Positions 7,721 to 18,296 of a DNA stretch of 34,331 bases are shown here, piece after piece. A program made the position numbers and the translations under genes. Numbering within the stretch: the stretch's first letter is position 1; each line of letters begins with the position of its first letter. Source of the stretch: Candidatus Poribacteria bacterium (GTDB lineage Bacteria > Poribacteria > WGA-4E > GCA-2687025); assembly GCA_016866785.1 (NCBI GenBank), contig VGLH01000032.1:1-34331 (forward strand), given 5' to 3'. The notes under the pieces were generated by a model that saw only the letters and a list, made by a program, of their open reading frames with translations, did no database searches and had not been told where the DNA came from.

Positions 7721-7736
7721 TGGCATGGTCGTTGCT
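7721..7736 (+). promoter_or_regulatory. Sigma-54 (-24/-12) promoter for flagellin
   Basis: TGGCAT, five bases, TTGCT: the invariant GG (7722-7723) and GC (7734-7735) have the required 12-bp register. Transcription would start about 70 bp before the flagellin ATG. Its match with the site before flgF supports a shared RpoN regulon. Confidence 0.75.
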
Positions 7737-7815
7737 TGCCTTCGAGCAGCATACGGACGGAGCGAGTCCCGCGTCCTTGGGGGCACCGCGTCGATACACA
7801 CGGAGGCGTACGGTC

Positions 7816-8688
7816 ATGTTCCGGATCAACACGAACATCATGTCGATCAACGGACAGCGGAACCTGTTCCGATCGAGCCGCGACGCTACGTCCGCGATGG
7901 AGCGGCTCGCATCGGGCTTGCGGATCGTCCATGCGGCGGACGACGCGGCGGGGCTGACGATGTCCGAAGGCATGCGTGCGCAGCTCGCCGGAGCCCGTCA
8001 GTCGAACCGGAACATCTCGCAGGCGATCTCGATGCTCCAGACCGCCGACGGAGGCTTCGAGCAGATCGGCAACATGCTCATCCGCCTCAAGGAACTCGCC
8101 GTCCAGGCGGCAGATTCCACGGTCAACGCGGCGAACCGTTCGGCGATCCAACAGGAAGTCACCCAGCTCCTCGTCGAGATCGACCGCACGGCACAATCGA
8201 CCACCTACAACGGCATGACGCTCATCTCCGCCGGATCGACAGCGAACGCCTCCATCCCGCTCAGCTTCTACGTCGGCGACGGATCGCTGACCTACAGCCA
8301 AATCATCTTTTTCACGATGAAGGGCGTCGCCAGCGGATTGACGAACGGCATCTCCATCGGCGGGCTGCTCTTCACGGTCGGAGTGGGGTCGTACGCTTCG
8401 CTGACCGAGGCGGCGAACGTCGTGAATAATATGGACGCTGCCGTGCGCGAACTGGCGTCGCTGCGAACGAGCGTCGGAGCCGTCGTGAACCGGCTCCAGC
8501 GCGCCCAGGCGAACATTCAGATCATGGCGGAGAACACCGCCAACGCCGAGTCGGTTATCCGCGACGCCGACTTCGCCCAGGAGACCGCCGCCCTGACTCG
8601 CGCTCAGATCCTCGTTCAGGCGGGAACCTCCATCCTGCAGCAGTCCAACCAGCTCCCCATGAACGCGCTGATGCTCCTCCAAGGCTAG
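7816..8688 (+). CDS. fliC: Flagellin
   Basis: Filament subunit, exported through the flagellar type III system. The 290-residue protein has the conserved D0/D1 N-terminus (INTNIMSINGQRNL, then SGLRIVHAADDAAGLTMSE) and C-terminus (RDADFAQETAALTRAQIL, ending SNQLPMNALMLLQG). The central part (about 140-210) is short, so the variable outer domains D2/D3 are reduced and the filament should be thin and smooth. LIRLKELAVQAAD resembles the D1 region that TLR5 recognises in other flagellins. The ATG is preceded by GGAGG at 9 bp. A sigma-54 promoter precedes it and an intrinsic terminator follows it, so it is probably a single-gene unit. Confidence 0.96.
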   Translation: MFRINTNIMSINGQRNLFRSSRDATSAMERLASGLRIVHAADDAAGLTMSEGMRAQLAGARQSNRNISQAISMLQTADGGFEQIGNMLIRLKELAVQAADSTVNAANRSAIQQEVTQLLVEIDRTAQSTTYNGMTLISAGSTANASIPLSFYVGDGSLTYSQIIFFTMKGVASGLTNGISIGGLLFTVGVGSYASLTEAANVVNNMDAAVRELASLRTSVGAVVNRLQRAQANIQIMAENTANAESVIRDADFAQETAALTRAQILVQAGTSILQQSNQLPMNALMLLQG

Positions 8689-8721
8689 CCAGACCGCCTC
8701 GGAGTATCGCTCGTCCCCCTA

Positions 8722-8748
8722 GGCTCCCATCCGTGGGAGCCGTTTTTG
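8722..8748 (+). terminator. Intrinsic terminator of flagellin
   Basis: An 8-bp perfect stem (GGCTCCCA with TGGGAGCC) with a TCCG tetraloop is followed by GTTTTTG, 33 bp after the flagellin stop. This is a strong classical terminator. Confidence 0.88.
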
Positions 8749-8799
8749 CGCTCAGTCATCCATCTCGCCAGCATCGTGTTCTACGGGAATCCGTGCGGG

Positions 8800-8911
8800 C
8801 CCTCACCTAACCTCTCCCTGAAGGGAGAGGGACCAGACATACCCTCGACCGGAGAGGAACCAGAGAGGACAGTCTCCTTCTCCGTTCAGGGAGAAGGCGG
8901 GGATGGGGGCT
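8800..8911. repeat. Bipartite hairpin repeat, copy A
   Basis: The first hairpin pairs CCTCTCCCT (8811-8819) with AGGGAGAGG (8822-8830). The second pairs CCTTCTCC (8876-8883) with GGAGAAGG (8890-8897). CCCTCACC flanks on the left. The same two-hairpin layout recurs at 24327-24408 before purD. It fills the gap between the flagellin terminator and the flgF promoter. Confidence 0.65.
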
Positions 8912-9042
8912 CGTCCGGTGGGTAATGTTTTCCGCACGCCGGTTCTGCCGCGGCGTTCCTTTCCTCCCAACGAGCCTCCGCAAGACCCACCGAGTCGCCG
9001 AGAACCCAGCAATCATCGGCGTCTGGGGCAGTCCGAGGCGGA

Positions 9043-9058
9043 TGGCACAAAGGTTGCT
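9043..9058 (+). promoter_or_regulatory. Sigma-54 (-24/-12) promoter for the flgF operon
   Basis: TGGCACAAAGGTTGCT is an almost perfect match to the TGGCAC-N5-TTGCW consensus, with GG and GC exactly 12 bp apart. It lies 30 bp before the flgF ATG, so the transcript leader is about 20 nt. It would drive at least flgF to flgI. Confidence 0.85.
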
Positions 9059-9087
9059 CCAACGGTTCCGACGAAGGGAGTGTCTTC

Positions 9088-9828
9088 ATGCTGCAAGGCA
9101 TATACACCGCGGCCTCTGGCATGCTCGCGCACGATGCCATCTCAGAGGTCATCACGAACAATCTCGCGAACGCTTCGACGCCCGGATTCCGTCAGGACTT
9201 CGCGACGTTTCACACGGCCGCCGACGCCCCGCATCCGCAGGATTCGCGGTATCTGGCGCCCGTCCTGACGTTCAAAGCCTACACGAACTTCGATATCGGC
9301 TCCCTGAAGCCAACGGGCAACCCGTTGGACCTGGCGTTCAACGACGGGGGAGAGAACTTCTTCGTCGTCCAGACGCCGCAGGGAATCCGCTACACCCGCG
9401 CCGGCAACTTCACCCTCAACGGCTCCAACACCATCGTGAACGCCCAGAACTACCCGGTTCTCGGCGAGAACGGACCCATCCAAGCCAACGGCAGCAAGAT
9501 CGAGATCGGCGCGGCTGGGGATGTCGTCGTGGACGGCGTCCTCGTCGACCGTCTGCGCGTCATCCAGTTCGACCCCATCAACGGCAGAACGCCGCTCCAG
9601 AAGGACGGCTACACGCTCTTCCGACCCATCGGGAACAGCGCGACGCCTCGGAACGCGAGCAATCCGCGCGTCCAGCAGGGCGCTCTGGAAGGCTCCAATG
9701 TCAGCCTCGTCAACGAAATGGCGCAGATGATCCACATCACTCGCGGCTTTGAAGCCTATCAACGGGCGATCCAAGTCAGCGACGCCACGCTCAACACCCT
9801 CATCCACCGAGTCGGAGGAGCCGGCTGA
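9088..9828 (+). CDS. flgF: Flagellar basal-body rod protein FlgF
   Basis: A proximal rod component, exported by the flagellar type III machine and assembled in the periplasm. The 246-residue protein has the rod/hook signature near the start ([12 protein letters not shown], then [12 protein letters not shown], the ANxxTPGF form) and the shared C-terminal helix ([25 protein letters not shown] split by VxxME-like spacing), which forms coiled coils in the rod. It is shorter and less standard than the following gene, which is the better FlgG, so I call this one FlgF. GGGAG precedes the ATG. Its TGA overlaps the ATG of flgG by one base, which suggests translational coupling. Confidence 0.88.
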
Positions 9829-10616
9829 TGATTCGCGCACTCTATTCCGCCGCATCGGGCATGAACGCCCAAGAACTCAACATCGACACGATCGCCAACA
9901 ACCTGGCGAACGTGAACACCAACGGGTTCAAGCGGGTCCGCGTCGACTTCCAAGACCTCATCTACCAGACGCTCCAATCGCCCGGCACGGCGTCCGGCGC
10001 TGGAACCGAAATCCCGACCGGCATCCAGGTCGGTCACGGAAGCCGCGCCGCCGCGACCCAGCGCATCTTCAGCCAGGGCGAATTCAAGCAGACGGAAGCG
10101 CCGCTCGACCTCGTCATCGAAGGTGAAGGGTTCTTCCAAATCCTCAACAACGACGGCGAACTCACCTACACGCGCGCCGGTTCCTTCAAGCTCGACGGCT
10201 CCGGGCGCGTCGTCACGTCGGACGGTCTGCCGCTCCAGCCGCAGATCACGATCCCTGCGGATGCGACGAACGTCTCGATCAGCAAGGACGGCATCCTCGA
10301 AGTGACGACCCCCGGCTCCAACCAGGGGCAGCAGCTCGGTATCATCCAGCTTGCGCGCTTCTCGAACCCGGCGGGACTGGAAGCCATCGGGCAGAACCTG
10401 TTCAAGCCGACCAACTCGTCGGGCCAGGCGCAGATCGGGAACCCCGCGACGGACGGCTACGGCTCGCTCTTGCAGGGCTTCTTGGAACTGTCCAACGTGA
10501 AACTCGTCGAGGAGATGGTCAGCATGATCGTCGCGCAGAGGGCTTACGAGATCAGCTCGAAGTCCATCCAAGCCGCCGACGAGATGCTCAACGTCGCCAA
10601 CAACCTGCGGCGGTAA
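9828..10616 (+). CDS. flgG: Flagellar distal rod protein FlgG
   Basis: The distal rod subunit that passes through the P and L rings. The 262-residue length is typical. [20 protein letters not shown] opens it, [13 protein letters not shown] is the rod/hook family motif, and [17 protein letters not shown] and the C-terminal [15 protein letters not shown] and QRAYE match FlgG closely. GGAGGAG lies before the overlapping ATG within the end of flgF. flgA follows after 27 bp. This is among the most secure identifications in the window. Confidence 0.95.
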
Positions 10617-10643: not shown

Positions 10644-11753
10644 ATGACCAGACACGCCTACGCGGCAGCCGGAAAAAGATGCCCGTCGCGCGGCGGACGC
10701 GGAAAAGATTTCCGCGGCAACCGCGCCCGGGTCGCCGGTCCGGCTCTCGTTGTCCTGCTGGCAATCGGGGGATTGGGAATTGCTCGCGGAGCCGAAGCCC
10801 CCAAGGCGACGCTCCGCTTCGTCGAAGACGCCGCGTTGTCGGGCGGGAAGATCCGCCTGTCCGACGTCGCCGTCATCGAGTCCAGCGACACCGACCTGAA
10901 GGCGAAGCTGGAAGCGATGGCGCTGGGTCCCGCGCCCCGCGTAGGTCAAGCGTTCACGTTCCGACCGGAGAGCGTGCGCCTGCTGCTGCGACGCGACAAG
11001 CACCTGCTCGGCGTCAGCGACAAGGACATTGCGTTCGAGGGTTCCGGCTCGACGCGCGTCCGAGTCGAGAGCCAGGAGATCGAGCCGTCCGCGCTTCTGC
11101 AGCGCCTGACGGCGTGGATCGAAGGGGAAGCCGCGACGACCTTCGGCGCCGAGCGCGTCGAGGTGAGCTTCTTGACGAAGCCCCCGAAGGTCGCGGTTCC
11201 CAAAGGTGAATGGACGGCGAAGCCGGCGATGAACCGTCTCCCGTCGCGCCTGACTTCGATCCTCTCGGTGCCAGTGAGCGTCGCCGTGGATGGGGAGACC
11301 TTCCAGACGCTGACCCTGGCACTGAAGTTGCGAGCCTTCGCCACAGCCGGTGTCGTCACGCGGGCGATTCACCGCCATGAAACGCTTGATGCGGACGCCA
11401 TCGACTGGAAGGAACTCGACATCACGACCCTCAACGGAGAGGCGCCGATCAGCGAATCGCAGGACATCTCGGGATGGCGCGCGACGCGCAGCCTGAGCGT
11501 CGGCGATCCGCTGACCCAGCAGAGCATCGAATCGATTCCGATCATCCAGAAGGGCGACCCGATCACCGTCTACCTCGAAGCCCCTCAACTGCGGATCACC
11601 ATGGCAGGTGAAGCCCAGCAGGACGGTCGCCTCGGCGATGTGATTCGATGCTTGAACCTCCGTTCCGGGAAGATGATTCGCGGGATCGTCGCCGGCGAAC
11701 GGCTCGTGCGGATCGACATGCGGACGCTGCTGACGACCGCAATGGTTCCCTAG
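10644..11753 (+). CDS. flgA: Flagellar P-ring assembly chaperone FlgA
   Basis: A periplasmic chaperone for P-ring formation. The 369 residues are longer than common FlgA proteins of about 220-240. The N-terminus has basic residues and a hydrophobic stretch (GPALVVLLAIGGLGIARG, about 32-49) that reads as a signal peptide with cleavage near GAEA. The C-terminal half has the SAF-like and FlgA domain pattern: VVTRAIHRHETLDADAIDW (about 235-255), a LSVGDPLTQQSIE segment, the GDPITVYLE strand and LNLRSGKMIRGIVAGE, equivalent to the N-x-x-S-G-K-x-x-x-G-x-V FlgA ending. The first 200 residues after the signal are an extended N-terminal domain. GGAGGG precedes the ATG. A sigma-54-like sequence lies inside the gene. 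Confidence 0.88.
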   Translation: MTRHAYAAAGKRCPSRGGRGKDFRGNRARVAGPALVVLLAIGGLGIARGAEAPKATLRFVEDAALSGGKIRLSDVAVIESSDTDLKAKLEAMALGPAPRVGQAFTFRPESVRLLLRRDKHLLGVSDKDIAFEGSGSTRVRVESQEIEPSALLQRLTAWIEGEAATTFGAERVEVSFLTKPPKVAVPKGEWTAKPAMNRLPSRLTSILSVPVSVAVDGETFQTLTLALKLRAFATAGVVTRAIHRHETLDADAIDWKELDITTLNGEAPISESQDISGWRATRSLSVGDPLTQQSIESIPIIQKGDPITVYLEAPQLRITMAGEAQQDGRLGDVIRCLNLRSGKMIRGIVAGERLVRIDMRTLLTTAMVP

Positions 11754-11779
11754 CGGCGAACCCAGTGCAGGAATGAGGC

Positions 11780-12394
11780 ATGGACATGGACACGTGTTTC
11801 CGCCGCTTGACAAACGGCATACCACTTCGCCTGATCGGAGCGGCTGCCACAGCTCTCCTGGTCGGCGCGATGACGGCTCAGGGCGCGCCGGTGCGCTCGC
11901 TCTATTCGGACCCGAAGGCGTCGCAAGTGGGTGACCTCCTGACGATCATCGTCATCGAGTCCACGCAGGCGAGCCGCTCGGCGTCCACCCAGACGAGCAA
12001 GACGAACAGCATCGGCTTCGCGGCGGGGCTGGAGACGAAGCCGCGCGGCGGCAGGGCATCCGGCAGCGGGAGCACGCAGACCGCGCTGAACGGAGCCGGC
12101 ACGACGCGCAGCAGCGGTGAACTGACGACGACCGTCACGGCGCTCGTCACGGAAGTCCTGCCCAACGGATATCTGAAGGTCGAGGGATCGCGCGAGCTGA
12201 CGATCAACAACGAGAAGGAGACGCTCCGGGTCTCCGGCATCTGCCGGACGGAAGATATCCAGCCGGATAACGTGCTCCTCTCGAACCAGTTGGCGAACCC
12301 GTCGATCAGCTACACAGGCGACGGCTGGATTGCGAAGCAGCAGAAGCCCAACATCGTCCTGCGGGTTCTCGCCAGCATTCTCCCGTTCTTTTAG
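11780..12394 (+). CDS. flgH: Flagellar L-ring protein FlgH, apparently without lipobox
   Basis: The outer-membrane L-ring subunit. The 204-residue protein has the conserved SLYSDPKASQVGDLLTIIVI segment after the signal peptide, the LTTTVTALVTEVLPNGYLKV and EGSRELTINNEKE strand region, and VSGICRTEDIQPDNVLLSNQ, which are diagnostic. FlgH is usually a lipoprotein with a cleavage-site Cys. Here the signal-like region (about 20-36) ends TAQGAPVRSLYSD and contains no Cys, so lipid attachment looks absent. Two ATG codons 6 bp apart are both usable. FlgH with FlgI shows that the cell has an outer membrane and a peptidoglycan ring pair. Confidence 0.92.
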   Translation: MDMDTCFRRLTNGIPLRLIGAAATALLVGAMTAQGAPVRSLYSDPKASQVGDLLTIIVIESTQASRSASTQTSKTNSIGFAAGLETKPRGGRASGSGSTQTALNGAGTTRSSGELTTTVTALVTEVLPNGYLKVEGSRELTINNEKETLRVSGICRTEDIQPDNVLLSNQLANPSISYTGDGWIAKQQKPNIVLRVLASILPFF

Positions 12395-12415
12395 ACGCCT
12401 TCGGAGGAGTTCTCC

Positions 12416-13582
12416 ATGAGACGTGACAGGCGACCGGTTGATATCGGCGCAATGCTCCTTGCGGCGGCGTTGTTCCTCGGACTCGCGGGAGGCGCGTCGG
12501 CGGCGCGGATCAAAGACATCGCGATCCTGCAAGGGATTCAGAGCTCTCAGGTGGTCGGCTATGGGCTCGTCATCGGCTTGAGCCGCACGGGCGATCAGAC
12601 GACGAACGTCCAGTTCACGCGTCAGGCGATCGAGAACCTGATGCGGAACATGGGCATGACGATCCAGAACGACCGAGGACAGCTCCGGGTCGGGAACGTC
12701 GCCTCGGTGATGGTCACGGCGGACGTGCCGCCCTTCATGCGGCGAGGGAGCCGGTTGGACGTGCTTGTCTCCTCGATGGGCGACGCGACGAGCCTGCAAG
12801 GCGGGACGCTGCTCCCGACTCCTCTGGTGAACGCCCAGGGGCAGATCATCGCGACGGCTTCGGGTCCCATCACGACGGGCGGGTTCCTCATCGAAGCCTC
12901 GGGCAGAGAGCGCACCCAGCGGAACCACGTCACGGCGGGGCGGATCCCCAACGGCGGCGTCATGGATGTGGACGTGAGCGCGGCTCCGTTCGACGCGGCG
13001 GCGGTTCCGCAGATGCTCGTGCTGGGGCTTCAGAACCCCGACTTCACGACGGCGGCGCGCGCGGCGGACGCGATCAACACAGCGCTGGGAGCGAATACGG
13101 CGGTCGCCACGGACGCGGCTTCGATCCAAGTGTCGATCCCGGCGGGCACGGCGGCGGGGCTCGTCCAGTTCATCGCGAATCTGGAAAGCCTCGAAGTGAC
13201 GCCGGATCACCGCGCCAAAGTCATCATCGACGAGCGGACCGGAACGGTCGTCATGGGCGAGAACGTGCGCATCTCGACGGTCGCCATCGCCCACGCGAAC
13301 CTGAACGTCCAGGTGTTCGAGCGCCCGATCATCTCCCAGCCGAGTCCGTTCGGTCAGGGTGAGACGGTCGTCGTGCCGGACACGGAGATCGCCGTGACGG
13401 ACGAGTCGGCGATGTCGCGACTGAACGAGGGCGGCTTGGTTCAAGTGATTCCGGGCAGTGTGTCGCTGAACGAGCTGGTACAGGGATTGAACGCCATCGG
13501 CATCAGTCCGCGCGATTTGATCGCGATCCTCCAGGCGATCAAGCAGGCTGGGGCGCTGCAGGCTGAACTCATCATCATGTAG
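12416..13582 (+). CDS. flgI: Flagellar P-ring protein FlgI
   Basis: The periplasmic P-ring subunit around the distal rod. The 388-residue length is typical. A Sec signal peptide (hydrophobic MLLAAALFLGLAGGASA) is followed by the mature start ARIKDIAILQGIQSSQVVGY, GLVIGLSRTGDQT and later VMVTADVPPFMRRGSRLDV and VIIDERTGTVVMGENVRIS, all close to FlgI consensus. The C-terminal half, LNEGGLVQVIPGSVSLNELV and GLNAIGISPRDLIAILQAIK, is also standard. GGAGGA lies 8 bp before the ATG. It is co-directional with flgH (21-bp gap) and flgJ (14-bp gap). Confidence 0.96.
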   Translation: MRRDRRPVDIGAMLLAAALFLGLAGGASAARIKDIAILQGIQSSQVVGYGLVIGLSRTGDQTTNVQFTRQAIENLMRNMGMTIQNDRGQLRVGNVASVMVTADVPPFMRRGSRLDVLVSSMGDATSLQGGTLLPTPLVNAQGQIIATASGPITTGGFLIEASGRERTQRNHVTAGRIPNGGVMDVDVSAAPFDAAAVPQMLVLGLQNPDFTTAARAADAINTALGANTAVATDAASIQVSIPAGTAAGLVQFIANLESLEVTPDHRAKVIIDERTGTVVMGENVRISTVAIAHANLNVQVFERPIISQPSPFGQGETVVVPDTEIAVTDESAMSRLNEGGLVQVIPGSVSLNELVQGLNAIGISPRDLIAILQAIKQAGALQAELIIM

Positions 13583-13596
13583 GCAGGAGCGGAGCG

Positions 13597-14001
13597 ATGG
13601 CGGGGTTCTCCCTGACGGCGATCTCGGCGGCGACGGTGAAGCCGACGCCCTTCGGCAAGACGACGCTCCCCAAGGAGCAGCAGGAGGCGTTGGACGCGGC
13701 GCGGAGTTTCGAGAGTCTGTTCATCAACAACCTGTTCAAGGCGATGCGGGCATCGGTTCCCAAGTCGGGGTTCCTGCCGGAGACATTCGCCTCGAACACG
13801 TACGAGCAGCTCTTCGACGAGCATCTCAGCACCGAGCTCTCGAAAGGAACCGGGCTGGGGCTGTCGGAGATGCTCTACCGCGAGTTCATGCGGCGCGAAT
13901 CGAGGGCTGCGGACACGTCATCGGCGGGTCTGCGTCCCTTCGAGCGGTCGCTTGTAGTCTCGCGTGTCGCGGACGGGTCGGTAGGCTGGCGGGACGGCTA
14001 G
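13597..14001 (+). CDS. flgJ: Rod-binding protein FlgJ, N-terminal domain only
   Basis: The rod-cap-like protein. The 134 residues contain the Rod-binding domain (PF10135): ARSFESLFINNLFKAMRASV (about 34-53), then ASNTYEQLFDEHLSTELSKG and TGLGLSEMLYREFM. No glucosaminidase domain follows, so a separate hydrolase must open the peptidoglycan, as in many non-enterobacterial flagella. Residues after about 105 are unconserved. The start has AGGAGCGGAG nearby. It sits 14 bp after flgI. Confidence 0.85.
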   Translation: MAGFSLTAISAATVKPTPFGKTTLPKEQQEALDAARSFESLFINNLFKAMRASVPKSGFLPETFASNTYEQLFDEHLSTELSKGTGLGLSEMLYREFMRRESRAADTSSAGLRPFERSLVVSRVADGSVGWRDG

Positions 14002-14098: not shown

Positions 14099-14437
14099 AT
14101 GGATCGCGCAATGATCATCGAGCACTTCAAGCGCCTCAATTCCTACACCTCGGAGCTTCGAGCCTCCCAGACCTCTCTGCGCGGGACGCGATCCGCGTCG
14201 TCTTCGTCGTCGGTTGCTCCGCCATCCTCGGTGGCAAACGGCGAAGATGAAGTGATCGTCTCCCCGGAAGCCCTCTTGTTCAGCCGCGCCAAGGACGCGC
14301 TGACCGGCGTTCCTGAGACCCGCGACGGGTTGATTCAGACGCTGCAAGAGGCGATCCAGAACGGCACCTACTCGGTGGACAACGTTCTGATCGCGGAAAG
14401 GCTGATGGAGGCGGTTGCGCGGTTCACGAGGAACTAG
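14099..14437 (+). CDS. flgM: Anti-sigma-28 factor FlgM
   Basis: Binds and inhibits FliA (sigma-28) until it is exported through the finished hook-basal body. The 112-residue protein has a Ser-rich, likely disordered centre (about 28-47) and the FlgM C-terminal pattern: DEVIVSPEALLFSRAKDAL, then VPETRDGLIQTLQEAIQNGT, then YSVDNVLIAERLMEA. These match the V-S-[LI]-S-x-x-A and I-x-x-G-x-Y-x-[VI] core of the family. The ATG used has AAGGA at a long distance; a second ATG four codons later is possible. Its presence implies a sigma-28 tier of late flagellar genes elsewhere. Confidence 0.82.
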   Translation: MDRAMIIEHFKRLNSYTSELRASQTSLRGTRSASSSSSVAPPSSVANGEDEVIVSPEALLFSRAKDALTGVPETRDGLIQTLQEAIQNGTYSVDNVLIAERLMEAVARFTRN

Positions 14438-14458: not shown

Positions 14459-15043
14459 ATGGCAACCCAACATCCTCAACGGAATACCTCTGCGCCGGGG
14501 AATGCCTCTCCGCCGCGCTCCGGCACGTCTGCTGGCGTCGCTCCTCTGAGCGCCGACGCTCGGACGCGCCAGGCGCTCGACGACGTGCTCGTCGTGCTGG
14601 AAAAGGAGCGCGCCTGCACCCACGCTCTCTTGGAGCAGGCGAAGCAGATCCAGAAGCATCTGCTGAGCGACGACTACATGTCGCTGCTCGTCGCCGCGCA
14701 GGAGCAGGAGATCCACGCTCAGCAGTTGGCGCAGTGGGAGCATCGGCGTCTGCTCTTGACCCGGCAGCTCGCCAAGACGTTCCCGGCGGTGTCGCGGACG
14801 CGGCTCTCCCTGTGGGCGAACGTTCTCCCGGAGCCGCACGCGACGCGTCTGCACACGATCCAAGCGACGCTACAGAGGGTGACGGAGCAGCTCCAGACGG
14901 TGAACCGACAGAACATGGCGCTCGTCCAGCGGTCGCTCCGGTTCGCGGAGATGGCGCTGGGCATCGATTCGTCGGCGTATGGCGTGCCGCATACCCGCGT
15001 TAACCGAGACGGCTTGCCGCAGTTGTTCGACAAGACGCTTTAG
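14459..15043 (+). CDS. flgN: FlgN-like flagellar export chaperone
   Basis: The predicted cytoplasmic chaperone for FlgK and FlgL, in the expected place between flgM and flgK. The 194-residue protein is mostly alpha-helical after a 30-residue unconserved start. VVLEKERACTHALLEQAKQI and EIHAQQLAQWEHRRLLLTRQ are typical of the long helices of FlgN (PF05130), and a later coiled segment (about 130-165) ends NRQNMALVQRSLRFAEMAL, like the usual N-x-x-N-x-x-L-x-x-x-x-x-x-x-x-x-x-L ending. Sequence identity in this family is low, so position carries weight in the call. GACGAGG precedes the ATG. Confidence 0.78.
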   Translation: MATQHPQRNTSAPGNASPPRSGTSAGVAPLSADARTRQALDDVLVVLEKERACTHALLEQAKQIQKHLLSDDYMSLLVAAQEQEIHAQQLAQWEHRRLLLTRQLAKTFPAVSRTRLSLWANVLPEPHATRLHTIQATLQRVTEQLQTVNRQNMALVQRSLRFAEMALGIDSSAYGVPHTRVNRDGLPQLFDKTL

Positions 15044-15070
15044 CGGTAAGTGTGACTGGGATTCGTGGTT

Positions 15071-15099
15071 GTACGGGCGGGTCTGAGACCCGCCCGTAC
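15071..15099. repeat. 29-bp perfect palindrome, GTACGGGC type
   Basis: GTACGGGCGGGTCT is followed by one G and its exact reverse complement, giving a 14-bp perfect inverted repeat. It lies 27 bp after flgN and could act as a terminator-like hairpin. Its core CGGGCGGGT/ACCCGCCCG is shared with the palindrome at 33189-33207. Confidence 0.8.
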
Positions 15100-15365
15100 A
15101 GAACCCAACCCATCGACGGAACGAACCGCTAACCAGTGCAGAGCATCGGGCGGGCAGCGACCCGTCAGCAGAGAAGGAGACGCGCGGGCTTCGCAATTTC
15201 GTCCAAAGGAGGGGCTTCGAGGCGAGAGGCTGCCCATCCATCCCGGAGCGGGGTCCTGGCGGGGAACCCGGTTCGGCGGAAGCGAGCCTTTCGTTGCCAA
15301 CGAGAACGCAGGTCGCCGATCTCGACGGCTTGCGGGAACGTACTCCTGAGACGAAAGGCGCTTCG
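15100..15365. other. Spacer between the flgN palindrome and flgK
   Basis: This is the only long gap inside the flg series. It holds two orphan Shine-Dalgarno-like strings (AGAAGGAG near 15173 and AAGGAGG near 15206) without a matching start and open frame. I found no convincing promoter: a GCCGATCT string near 15314 resembles a sigma-28 -10 but has no TAAA at -35. It may hold an unrecognised promoter for flgK-flgL or be debris of the repeat insertion. Confidence 0.35.
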
Positions 15366-16721
15366 ATGAGCACGTTACTGAACAGCCTCGGACTGTTGAA
15401 CAGTCTGAACACGGGGCGGCGAGCCGTCAATGCACAGCAGGCGGCGCTCCAGATCACCGGGAGGAACATCTCCAACGTCAACACGCCTGGGTACACGAGG
15501 CAGCGCGCCGTCACCCAGGTGAGCGACCCGCGCACGGAAGTGCTCCTCGGCGAAGACCGTACGCGGGTGCAGCAGGTTCGCGACGAGCTCGTCGAGCGCC
15601 TTTTCCTACAAGAGCGCCAGCGATTCGCCTCGCTGGACAAGAGCGCCCAACTGCTCTCCCAGGTGGAGACCGCATTGGGCGAACCCTCCGATTCCGCGCT
15701 CAACGCGCAACTCAGCCGGTTCTACGACGCGTGGGAGTCCCTGGCGACCTCGCCGGAGAGCGCTCCGCCCAAGAACGTCGTCATCGAACGCGCGCGCACG
15801 CTGAGCGCCACCTTCGGGTCGCTGACCCGCCATCTCGAATCGCTTCAGCAGCAGAACCTCACCGACGCTGCCGACCTCATCAAGAGCGTGAACCTCAAGC
15901 TGGGGCAGATCCGCGCGCTCAACGAGCAGATATCCCAGGAGTTCACCGTCGGCGGGGATCATCTCGAGCTGCGCGACCGTCAGGACGAGATCATCCGCGA
16001 GCTGGCGGACCTGGTCGCCGTGCGGGTCACCGAGGGCGTCAACGGGATGCGGACGGTTCAGGCGAACGGCTTGGCGCTGGTCGAGGGTCACGAGGCGGGT
16101 TCCGTCCAGTTGGTCACGGGTCAGAACGGGCGGTTCACCGTGCAGGCGGTCCTCGACGGGAGCCGGTTCGACCTGACGCCGATGGGCGGCGAGCTCCACG
16201 GCTTGATGACCGTCCAGAACGAGGCGCTCCCGGCGATCCTGAACGATCTCCACAGCACGGCGCGTACGCTCATCTCGCAGGTGAACGCGCTCCATCCGAA
16301 CTTCTTCCGCACGTTGACGACGGAGCAGAGCGCGCGGGCGGCTCTCTTCGTCGAGATTCTGCCGACATCGCCGTCCGACGTGAGGGCGACCGCATCGGGA
16401 CGGGCGGGAGCCAACGAGATCGCGCTGTCCGTGGCAGGGCTTCGGAACGCGCGGCAGACGGATTTGGCGGATCAGTCGGTCATCGGGTTCTACCAGGAGC
16501 TGGTGTCGGCGGTCGGCGCGCGGGTTCAGGAGGCGGGGGAACGGCGCGACACGTCGAACCTGCTCGTGGAACAGATGCGTCAGCGGCGCGAGTCGGTTTC
16601 CGGCGTCTCGCTCGACGAAGAGGCGACCGACATGATCACGTACCAGCGCGCGTTCCAGGCGGCGGCGCGGTACATCCAGGTCGTGGACGATCTGATGCGG
16701 ACGATCATCGAGCGCGTCTGA
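15366..16721 (+). CDS. flgK: Flagellar hook-associated protein 1 FlgK
   Basis: The first hook-filament junction protein. The 451 residues are at the short end of the family. The N-terminus contains LNTGRRAVNAQQAALQITGR and NISNVNTPGYTRQR, the hook-family ANxxTPGYxR motif in FlgK form. SQVETALGEPSDSALNAQLS, FYDAWESLATSPES and LRDRQDEIIRELADLV are further FlgK landmarks. The C-terminus, SGVSLDEEATDMITYQRAFQ followed by AAARYIQVVDDLM, is the standard D0 helix. I start at the ATG after GAAAGG; the frame upstream is not FlgK-like. The middle domains are small, as in the flagellin. flgL follows after 20 bp. Confidence 0.94.
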   Translation: MSTLLNSLGLLNSLNTGRRAVNAQQAALQITGRNISNVNTPGYTRQRAVTQVSDPRTEVLLGEDRTRVQQVRDELVERLFLQERQRFASLDKSAQLLSQVETALGEPSDSALNAQLSRFYDAWESLATSPESAPPKNVVIERARTLSATFGSLTRHLESLQQQNLTDAADLIKSVNLKLGQIRALNEQISQEFTVGGDHLELRDRQDEIIRELADLVAVRVTEGVNGMRTVQANGLALVEGHEAGSVQLVTGQNGRFTVQAVLDGSRFDLTPMGGELHGLMTVQNEALPAILNDLHSTARTLISQVNALHPNFFRTLTTEQSARAALFVEILPTSPSDVRATASGRAGANEIALSVAGLRNARQTDLADQSVIGFYQELVSAVGARVQEAGERRDTSNLLVEQMRQRRESVSGVSLDEEATDMITYQRAFQAAARYIQVVDDLMRTIIERV

Positions 16722-16741
16722 GCGTAGAGAGGGAATGACCG

Positions 16742-17662
16742 ATGCAGCTACGAGTAACGCTCCAATCGCGAGCCCTCCAGATGCGCGACGCGATCCAGTC
16801 GCGGGGCAGCGACGTCCAGCGCACCCAGGAGGAGGTCACGACGGGTCGGCGACTGCTTCGACCGTCGGACGATCCGGTGGCGGCGCGTCAGGCGCTGCTC
16901 CATCGCGCGCAGCTCGCCCAGATCGAGCAGTACAAGAGCAACATCGACCTTTCCATCGGCGACCTGAACGCCGCCGACTCCTTCCTCGACGATGTGAACC
17001 TGCGCATCACGCGGGCGAAGGAGGTCGCCATCCAGATGGGCAGCGATGCGAACAGCCCCGGCGCGCGCAAAGCCGCCGCGTTCGAGATCGACGCGCTCAT
17101 CGACGATCTGATCGCGCTGGGCAACAGCTCGTTCCGGGGGCGTTCCATCTTCGCCGGGGAGAACACGACCGCCGCCGCCTTTACGCGGTCTGGCGACACG
17201 GTGACCTACCACGGCACGGACACGGGAGCCCAACGGCGGATCGCCGAGGACACGCCGCTCGTCGAGACGACGATCCCGGCGTCGCAGTTCCTCTTCTCGA
17301 CGCGCGACGCGAGCAACGTCGTGACGGACGGCATTTTCCGCACGCTGGCGACGCTCAAGACCGCGCTCAACGCGAACGACGCCAACGCCATTCGGGATTC
17401 CATCCAGAGCCTGACGGCGGATCAGAGCCGCGTGCAGTCGGCGCGGACGGTCATCGGCGGTCGGACGGAGCGGGTGCAGCAGACGCGCGTCCGGCTGGAG
17501 AATACCGAGTCGGAGATTCGGAGCCTGCAATCGACCATCGAGGACGCGGACCTCGCCGAGTCGATCAGCGAGATGCAGCTCCGCCAGACGGCGCTTCAGG
17601 CGACGCTGGGCGTGGCATCGCAGACGATCCCGCTGTCGTTGATGGATCTGCTGACGAGGTAG
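16742..17662 (+). CDS. flgL: Flagellar hook-associated protein 3 FlgL
   Basis: The second hook-filament junction protein, flagellin-like in its ends. The 306-residue protein has an N-terminal coiled helix with QEEVTTGRRLLRPSDDPVAA (about 30-49), the FlgL signature, and FRGRSIFAGENTTAAAFTRS in the middle. The C-terminus, TESEIRSLQSTIEDADLAES through ISEMQLRQTALQATLGVASQ, is the family D0/D1 helix. GAGAGGGAATG-type spacing precedes the ATG. The last 123 bp, including the stop, are present a second time about 640 bp downstream as a non-functional copy, with a toxin-antitoxin-like module in between. Confidence 0.94.
   Translation: MQLRVTLQSRALQMRDAIQSRGSDVQRTQEEVTTGRRLLRPSDDPVAARQALLHRAQLAQIEQYKSNIDLSIGDLNAADSFLDDVNLRITRAKEVAIQMGSDANSPGARKAAAFEIDALIDDLIALGNSSFRGRSIFAGENTTAAAFTRSGDTVTYHGTDTGAQRRIAEDTPLVETTIPASQFLFSTRDASNVVTDGIFRTLATLKTALNANDANAIRDSIQSLTADQSRVQSARTVIGGRTERVQQTRVRLENTESEIRSLQSTIEDADLAESISEMQLRQTALQATLGVASQTIPLSLMDLLTR
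17540..17662 (+). repeat. flgL 3'-end direct repeat, intact copy
   Basis: The last 41 codons of flgL (from GAG-GAC-GCG to TAG). It is 117/123 identical to 18306-18428. All six differences are transitions. Confidence 0.95.
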
Positions 17663-17781: not shown

Positions 17782-18072
17782 TTGTCGGCGTACCGGCTGA
17801 TCTTTCGGATGCACGCGATTCGGCGGATGTTCCAGCGCGCCATCGCGTATGAAGACGTGTCCCACGTTCTGGACAACGGCGAGACGATCGAGGAGTATCT
17901 TAGCGATCGACCGTACCCGAGCCGCTTGATACTCGGATGGTCGGGCGGCCGCGCGTTGCACGTCGTCGTCGCGACCAATGCCGTCGAGCAGGAATCGATC
18001 GTTATCACCGTGTACGAGCCCGACCCGGACAAGTGGGAGCCGGGATTTCGACACAGGAAGCCCAAAACATGA
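17782..18072 (+). CDS. DUF4258 protein, probable toxin-like partner
   Basis: A 96-residue protein with the DUF4258 pattern: RMHAIRRMFQRAIAYEDVSH (His and Arg-rich first helix, as in R-x-x-x-R-x-[IV]), DNGETIEEYLSDRPYPSRLI, GWSGGRALHVVVATN and IVITVYEPDPDKWEPGFRHR. This small fold resembles RelE/BrnT-like toxins, and members are commonly coded beside YgiT-type zinc-finger proteins, as here. A TTG start with AGGG nearby gives the full domain; an internal ATG at 17809 would lose only nine residues. Its stop overlaps the next start (ATGA). Toxicity is inferred from the family and context and is not visible in the sequence. Arrival with the duplicated flgL end suggests mobility. Confidence 0.75.
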   Translation: MSAYRLIFRMHAIRRMFQRAIAYEDVSHVLDNGETIEEYLSDRPYPSRLILGWSGGRALHVVVATNAVEQESIVITVYEPDPDKWEPGFRHRKPKT

Positions 18073-18296
18073 AGTGCGTCATCTGTCGGCACGGCGAGAC
18101 GCAAACCGGTACCGCCACGGTTATGCTCACGCGGGACGCGATGACGCTCGTGTTCCGAGGTGTACCCGCCCAGGTCTGCGCCAACTGCGGCGAGGAGTAC
18201 GTCGACGAAGAGACGACGGCACGCCTGCTTCAGGTCGCTGAGGACGCTGCGCAAGCCGGCGTGCAGGTGGACGTGCGGGAGTTCGTCGCGGCGTAG
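18069..18296 (+). CDS. YgiT-type zinc-finger protein, probable antitoxin
   Basis: A 75-residue protein related to the N-terminal zinc domain of MqsA/YgiT. Two CxxC pairs are present, MKCVIC (Cys3, Cys6) and VCANCGEEYVDEET (Cys37, Cys40 approximately), with FRGVPAQVCANCGEEY being the strongest family signature. No helix-turn-helix domain of the full MqsA follows, so DNA binding would depend on this short form or a partner. The ATG overlaps the DUF4258 stop, which fits a translationally coupled pair. The order is putative toxin first. Antitoxin function is inferred. Confidence 0.8.
   Translation: MKCVICRHGETQTGTATVMLTRDAMTLVFRGVPAQVCANCGEEYVDEETTARLLQVAEDAAQAGVQVDVREFVAA

Follow-up and report, generated by a model that had tools for sequence, protein, structure and literature searches.

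Sigma-54-type promoters before a flagellin gene and the flgF operon of a Candidatus Poribacteria genome, and a predicted sigma-54 chaperone regulon in its class

In Campylobacter jejuni the flagellin genes flaB and flaA are split between sigma tiers. Its rod and hook genes are driven by FlgSR together with sigma-54, as stated in passages of PMC7064773. For Vibrio cholerae, passages of PMC7064773 and PMC6504787 describe a class III controlled by FlrC and sigma-54, which comprises the flgB, flgF and flgK operons as well as flaA, while the other flagellins belong to class IV and are transcribed with sigma-28. Here we analyzed a flagellar gene cluster from Candidatus Poribacteria. The window, i.e. 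the whole stretch of 34,331 nucleotides under study, is the entire contig C32 of a 4.345-Mb genome in 291 contigs that is rated 95.42% complete.

The flagellar genes of the window are all located on the forward strand in the order fliC, flgF, flgG, flgA, flgH, flgI, rod-binding protein, flgM, flgN, flgK and flgL. The first gene, fliC (7816..8688), encodes a flagellin of 290 aa that matches PF00669 and, under the curated cut-offs in every case, the NCBIfam flagellin models. Its start codon, ATG at 7816, follows a ribosome-binding site GGAGG read from the sequence (7802..7806). flgF (9088..9828, ATG at 9088) encodes the proximal rod protein, its TIGR02490 score of 177.5 bits lying just under the cut-off (178.5), and is likewise preceded by a readable ribosome-binding site (AAGGGAG, 9074..9080). 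The distal rod protein FlgG (9828..10616) carries FlgE/F/G domains and shows 78–80% identity to three proteins from Candidatus Poribacteria MAGs, the next matches being at 62%. Further downstream follow flgA, flgH, flgI and the gene for a rod-binding (FlgJ-type) protein (10644..14001; PF13144, PF02107, PF02119 and PF10135, above cut-off), a borderline flgM for the anti-sigma-28 factor (14099..14437; TIGR03824, 40.7 bits, just under the cut-off of 40.75), and flgN, flgK and flgL (14459..17662; PF05130, PF22638 and PF00669/PF00700, above cut-off). The last of these codes for a flagellin-family protein and was named flgL from the gene order. Genes resembling those of purine synthesis, judged by eye, lie 3’ of the flagellar cluster. 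Also by eye, we noticed that GGGAGAGG / CCTCTCCCT stretches recur in the interval from fliC to flgF (8809-8905), and that two small ORFs at 17827-18296 have the look of a toxin gene paired with one for a zinc-finger antitoxin. The gene caller was trained on the 19 genes of the window and is thus rough; for AT-rich genomes the longest downstream ORF was taken instead.

A first-pass annotation of this DNA had proposed matched sigma-54 promoters at sensible distances before fliC and flgF, and this two-site observation is confirmed. The site of fliC, TGGCAT-N5-TTGCT (TGGCATGGTCGTTGCT), is located at 7721..7736 and that of the flgF operon, TGGCAC-N5-TTGCT (TGGCACAAAGGTTGCT), at 9043..9058, both on the coding strand. 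Both fit the sigma-54-type pattern TGGCAY-N5-TTGCT exactly, with GG at -24, GC at -12 and 10 bases between them, and a scan of the window found no further exact match. According to the gene calls both sites are intergenic; they end 79 nt (fliC) and 29 nt (flgF) before the start codon. If transcription begins 12 nt after the GC, the leaders would measure about 69 nt and about 19 nt, respectively. From the rate in the reversed control, the chance of finding the exact pattern is approximately 7e-5 per upstream region of 150 nt. A sigma-28-like match upstream of flgF, scoring 13.1, shares positions with the sigma-54 site; we regarded it as chance.

We then considered the distribution of the motif across the genome. 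As a control we scored the same DNA in reverse, and the weights and thresholds (11.5 of 12.8 for sigma-54, 14 of 17.8 for sigma-28) are our own. Counted over both strands of the 4.345 Mb, there are 15 matches to the exact 16-mer and 4 to the pattern read backwards. When one mismatch was allowed, using a closely related pattern ending in W, the counts were 132 against 242. Since this is no enrichment, only near-perfect sites are informative and one-mismatch sites were left out. One such match inside flgA (11317) recurs in relatives; it falls in coding sequence (LALKLR, by eye) and was put down to coding constraint. In support of the first-pass interpretation, further exact sites are present, several of them before genes typical of sigma-54: a glutamine synthetase gene (a tandem pair), an ammonium transporter gene and a flgB-like gene. 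The last was named by eye, without a Pfam match, and carries the exact site TGGCACGAAGATTGCT. An exact site also stands before the cluster on contig C79 that runs into two flagellin-type genes, and one each before a sigma-70-family gene, an ECF sigma gene, groES-groEL and clpB. The remaining ones lie inside a gene (C38), lack a clear target (C15) or precede genes of unknown function (C148, C18). The tandem sites at L054:10494-10531 are followed by the glutamine synthetase gene and then by a gene that looks PII-like by eye.

The regulators that such promoters call for are encoded in the genome. The gene for sigma-54 itself, rpoN, is present on contig C125 (PF04552, E 7.7e-57; TIGR02395, 370.2 bits, above cut-off). 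Across the class we found rpoN in 55 of 58 genomes, including 46 of the 48 without a FlgF match. The sigma-54 activator domain PF00158 has 16 matches in the genome, 14 of them strong. With regard to the FlrC/FlbD-type activators that had been suggested, a response regulator on contig C61 (L158:3792-5132) scores best against the AtoC, NtrC and FlbD models, every score being below cut-off; it is located just upstream of a flagellin gene (L158:5579-6454). The flgM of the window, a borderline match, had been taken to imply a sigma-28 tier. A fliA gene, which scores above cut-off, is located on contig C199 after an flhA-like gene, with a second FlgM gene beside it (L060:3461-3715).

We consider it probable, at roughly three in four, that the fliC and flgF sites are working sigma-54 (RpoN) promoters within a hierarchy split between class III and class IV in the manner of V. 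cholerae. Transcription from both sites would then start from sigma-54 RNA polymerase waiting at -24/-12 as a closed complex, which an ATP-driven activator of the NtrC/FlbD/FlrC type would open. The best candidate for this activator would be the C61 response regulator. Judging from Vibrio and Campylobacter, opening would probably occur once the early export apparatus exists, which would amount to an assembly checkpoint. The same sigma-54 tier would drive the flgB-like gene and those behind it on C79. The fliC of the window would have joined this tier, and the C61 flagellin would keep its sigma-28 promoter under FliA and FlgM. By motifs and gene content, the predicted sigma-54 set comprises rod operons and one flagellin, and another flagellin would belong to sigma-28, with FliA and FlgM encoded in the genome; this is the arrangement by which a split hierarchy is defined.

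As in V. cholerae, sigma-54 sites are found at the flgB-like gene, at flgF and at one flagellin, a sigma-28 site is found at another, and FliA, FlgM and an NtrC/FlbD-type regulator are present. Unlike V. cholerae, the organism belongs to a different phylum, flgK and flgL follow within the flgF cluster, the candidate regulator adjoins the sigma-28-type flagellin, and no enhancer site was recognized. A search for a shared enhancer dyad among nine flagellar sigma-54 promoters, six of which were flgF sites picked for having a site, gave none that stands out; leaving aside an artefact of the inserted N spacer, the best, GGAA-N5, occurred in 3 of 9, and shuffles reached at most 2. The likeness to C. 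jejuni lies in rod genes on sigma-54 and a sigma-28 tier for a flagellin. Gene order and the set of flagellins in C. jejuni differ from those described here. By itself, the two-site finding is nothing unusual for a polar-type flagellar programme, and what was unexpected came from beyond these coordinates.

The flagellin promoters were assessed in the genome itself and in relatives. The genome contains nine Flagellin_N matches, one of which is the flgL of the window. Upstream DNA was readable for 7 of the own flagellins, and only that of fliC contains a direct sigma-54 site. The C61 flagellin carries a near-consensus sigma-28 site, TAAAGATT-N11-GCCGATAC, which scores 16.6 of 17.8 and lies about 345 nt before the start. 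In relatives, a sigma-54 site of at least 11.5 was found at 0 of 22 flagellin upstream regions, with 1 of 22 in the reversed control (L287, 12.05). A sigma-28 score of at least 14 was reached at 6 of 22 (G001, G007, G008 and three in G029), with 0 of 22 in the control. Two more flagellins have sigma-28 sites of the form TAAAGTTT-N11-GCCGATAC (L078) and TCAAGTTT-N11-GCCGATAC (L077). The 22 regions derive from 30 loci, of which 26 were scored and 19 had a start; 3 duplicates and 2 wrong starts were removed and 8 rescored loci added. The count covers loci only, and many further flagellin matches had no locus. Most flagellin upstream regions carry neither type of site. From the 0 of 22 in relatives, the sigma-54 promoter of fliC appears to be a private feature of this lineage as far as sampled.

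This distribution also bears on an alternative that we regard as unlikely, though the strongest of those considered: only the flgF site would be genuine, the match before fliC would be inert or due to chance, and transcription of fliC would depend on a sigma-70 or sigma-28 promoter that went unrecognised. It would fit the lack of sigma-54 sites at the 22 flagellins of relatives and the sigma-28 sites at the C61 flagellin and at several flagellins of relatives. However, the fliC site is an exact 16-mer at a sensible distance, and the control rate gives a probability of about 1e-3 for one such site within 350 nt of any of the 7 own flagellins. In addition, no good sigma-28 site of the type TAAAGTTT-N11-GCCGATAA was found upstream of fliC, the best scoring only 10.5 of 17.8.

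The first-pass annotation went further and considered flagellin itself to be sigma-54 driven and the hierarchy to be rearranged. The first part probably applies to fliC with its exact site, but is not supported for the other six own flagellins with readable upstream DNA or for the 22 of relatives. The second would require that the entire flagellin tier has shifted from sigma-28 to sigma-54, which we consider very improbable. Besides the site at fliC, it can draw on the sigma-54 site of the C79 cluster, which lies 2.7 kb upstream of the first of the two flagellin-type genes. Against it stand the near-consensus sigma-28 site of the C61 flagellin, the similar sites at several flagellins of relatives, and the retention of fliA and flgM. 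A move of flagellin as such is not supported by these sites; the pattern is instead that of a tier split between both sigma factors.

The sigma-54 site of the flgF operon, by comparison, recurs in relatives. FlgF of the window has a match in 10 of the 58 genomes searched, own genome included; the one in G003 is weak and lies within a frame of 657 residues. A good sigma-54 site was found at the best flgF match in 5 of the 8 relatives with a readable FlgF-type start, namely G005 (TGGCACGCATGTTGCT), G004 (TGGCACGCATGTTGCG), G009, G007 and G008, with scores of 12.1–12.8 of 12.8. The site in G011 is borderline (11.8, without the first T; reversed control 11.6), and in G001 the upstream region has only a poor one (9.8). 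In G029 the site is lacking at the best FlgF match (9.05) and perfect at a second FlgF-type copy. Scores of at least 11.5 in the reversed control occurred at 1 of 8 (G011, 11.6). The two FlgF-type genes of G029 are located on C17 and C25 (L181, L179), and this genome has 21 flagellin-type matches. That flgF is merely read through from the adjacent and co-oriented fliC, its own upstream site being irrelevant, is scarcely credible, given that several relatives carry a sigma-54 site at flgF and none at their flagellins, and given a terminator-like hairpin 3’ of fliC (8722-8741, followed by GTTTTT; 8722..8747 in all; 1 found against 0.2 expected in shuffles), owing to which flgF plausibly needs a promoter of its own.

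Apart from flagellar genes, we followed the chaperone genes through the class. groES has a match in 56 of the 58 genomes, and in 52 of these 56 the 250 nt upstream contain a sigma-54 site that scores 11.5 or more of 12.8, against 0 of 56 in the reversed control. The site in the own genome is located at L066:6429-6444 and the groES loci of relatives are L201-L258; the four genomes without a site are G003, G011, G029 and G054. Eight second or third groES copies comprise 5 without a recognised start and 3 without a site. In 14 representative groES sites TGGC and TTGC are invariant and the flanking columns reach 0.29–0.64, the invariance of TGG and GC being partly built in because the representatives were picked for having a site. 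For clpB, 55 genomes have a strong match; 50 were examined and one was dropped with only 7 nt of upstream DNA, leaving a sigma-54 site in 41 of 49 genomes (24 of 29 plus 17 of 20), against 0 of 49 in the reversed control (own site at L063:4345-4360; relatives at L296-L325 and L436-L455). The clpB genes of G004 and G005 fall just under the threshold (11.4). As most of the genomes belong to just two genera, these counts overstate the independence of the observations.

The sigma-54 site of the own groES overlaps a CIRCE-like element with two changes. A perfect CIRCE without a sigma-54 site was seen at the only groES copy found in G011 (L203) and at second copies in G007 and G008 (L256, L257). Within the family of the window (L201, L202, L205, L209, L226, L237), CIRCE-like elements with up to 5 changes overlap the sigma-54 site of groES, lie next to it or take its place.

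Three genomes that consist of a single contig contain the exact pattern 49, 30 and 32 times and the reversed one 13, 5 and 7 times, so part of these exact sites is due to chance. Genes behind exact sites in more than one of the three include clpB, Hsp20 (3 of 3), glutamine synthetase, a sigma-70-family gene and rsmH/mraW. G025 additionally has exact sites before dnaK (301 nt away) and before a receiver-less sigma-54 activator (L397:258-1358). The sigma-54-like sites before rsmH/mraW lie 26 nt (L395) and 23 nt (L328) from the gene in two of the complete genomes, the gene at L328 being assigned by similarity to L395.

Upstream of the chaperone promoters we found a palindrome, TGCCA-N3-TGGCA (TGCCAAAATGGCA). 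In the dyad search it was present in eight gene-genus combinations, against at most two in 20 shuffles that preserved base composition only. Its relaxed form TG[CA]CA-N3-TG[GT]CA occurs upstream of groES in 39 of 52 cases, of clpB in 25 of 43 and of hsp20/dnaK in 2 of 4, counted on the same promoters on which the palindrome was discovered. Of the 110 loci with exact sigma-54-like sites in the three genomes, 5 carry it, four of them being groES, clpB, hsp20 and dnaK of G025; as these loci (111 exact sites) include the G025 chaperone genes, the comparison is only partly independent. Elsewhere the palindrome is rare, with 8 occurrences in 757,918 bp; this background is likewise only partly independent, being made up of overlapping loci with the chaperone loci included. 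The palindrome is absent upstream of fliC and flgF in the window, and none was found at the own groES and clpB. Most simply, the palindrome can be read as a candidate site for a single activator that, in much of the class, would be dedicated to the promoters of chaperone genes. Together with the -24/-12 motif at groES and clpB, it leads us to predict a chaperone regulon that depends on sigma-54 and has an activator of its own.

Sites of the -24/-12 type at chaperone genes have been predicted or described in other bacteria. PMC12316311 (2025) predicts, in the passages concerned, sigma-54 control of GroEL, GroES, IbpA, GrpE, DnaJ and DnaK in Planctomycetota and Bacteroidota; its main text nowhere contains the stem Poribacter. 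RpoN dependence is given for Bradyrhizobium groESL3 in a passage of PMC4842269, and a tandem promoter for Chlamydia hrcA-grpE in one of PMC8762339. The corresponding part of PMC3224663 places the chaperone genes of Xylella under sigma-32, and passages of the broad survey PMC3162934 name neither groE nor clpB. The sites at groES, clpB, hsp20 and dnaK reported here resemble the predicted and described cases in Planctomycetota, Bacteroidota, Bradyrhizobium and Chlamydia. They differ from the predictions in the passages of PMC12316311 in that 52 of 56 genomes carry the site at groES, often accompanied by a palindrome that is largely confined to the promoters of chaperone genes. While the theme of sigma-54 chaperone control is known, neither its occurrence in Poribacteria nor the palindrome turned up in our searches of open-licence papers, which also gave no report on sigma-54 in Poribacteria.

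Taking these observations together, we lean towards a reading in which sigma-54 would serve as a heat-shock sigma factor of this Poribacteria class. Transcripts of groES-groEL, clpB, hsp20 (3 of 3 complete genomes) and dnaK (1 of 3) would start from -24/-12 promoters, and in much of the class a single activator bound at TGCCA-N3-TGGCA would be dedicated to opening them. The flagellar sites of the window would belong, as one branch, to a sigma-54 network of unusual width in which chaperone synthesis needs ATP-driven activation, and in the window’s family the CIRCE-like overlap at groES would add control by a repressor.

For flagellar biology, the predicted promoters would extend the sigma-54 rod-gene programme of the Vibrio/Campylobacter type to a deep, uncultured lineage, in which one flagellin may have been captured by this programme and others stay on sigma-28. 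If the chaperone part is true, most sampled genomes of the class, many without a FlgF match among them, would run their heat-shock response with sigma-54, and a DNA operator that can be named would make the search for the activator direct and testable.
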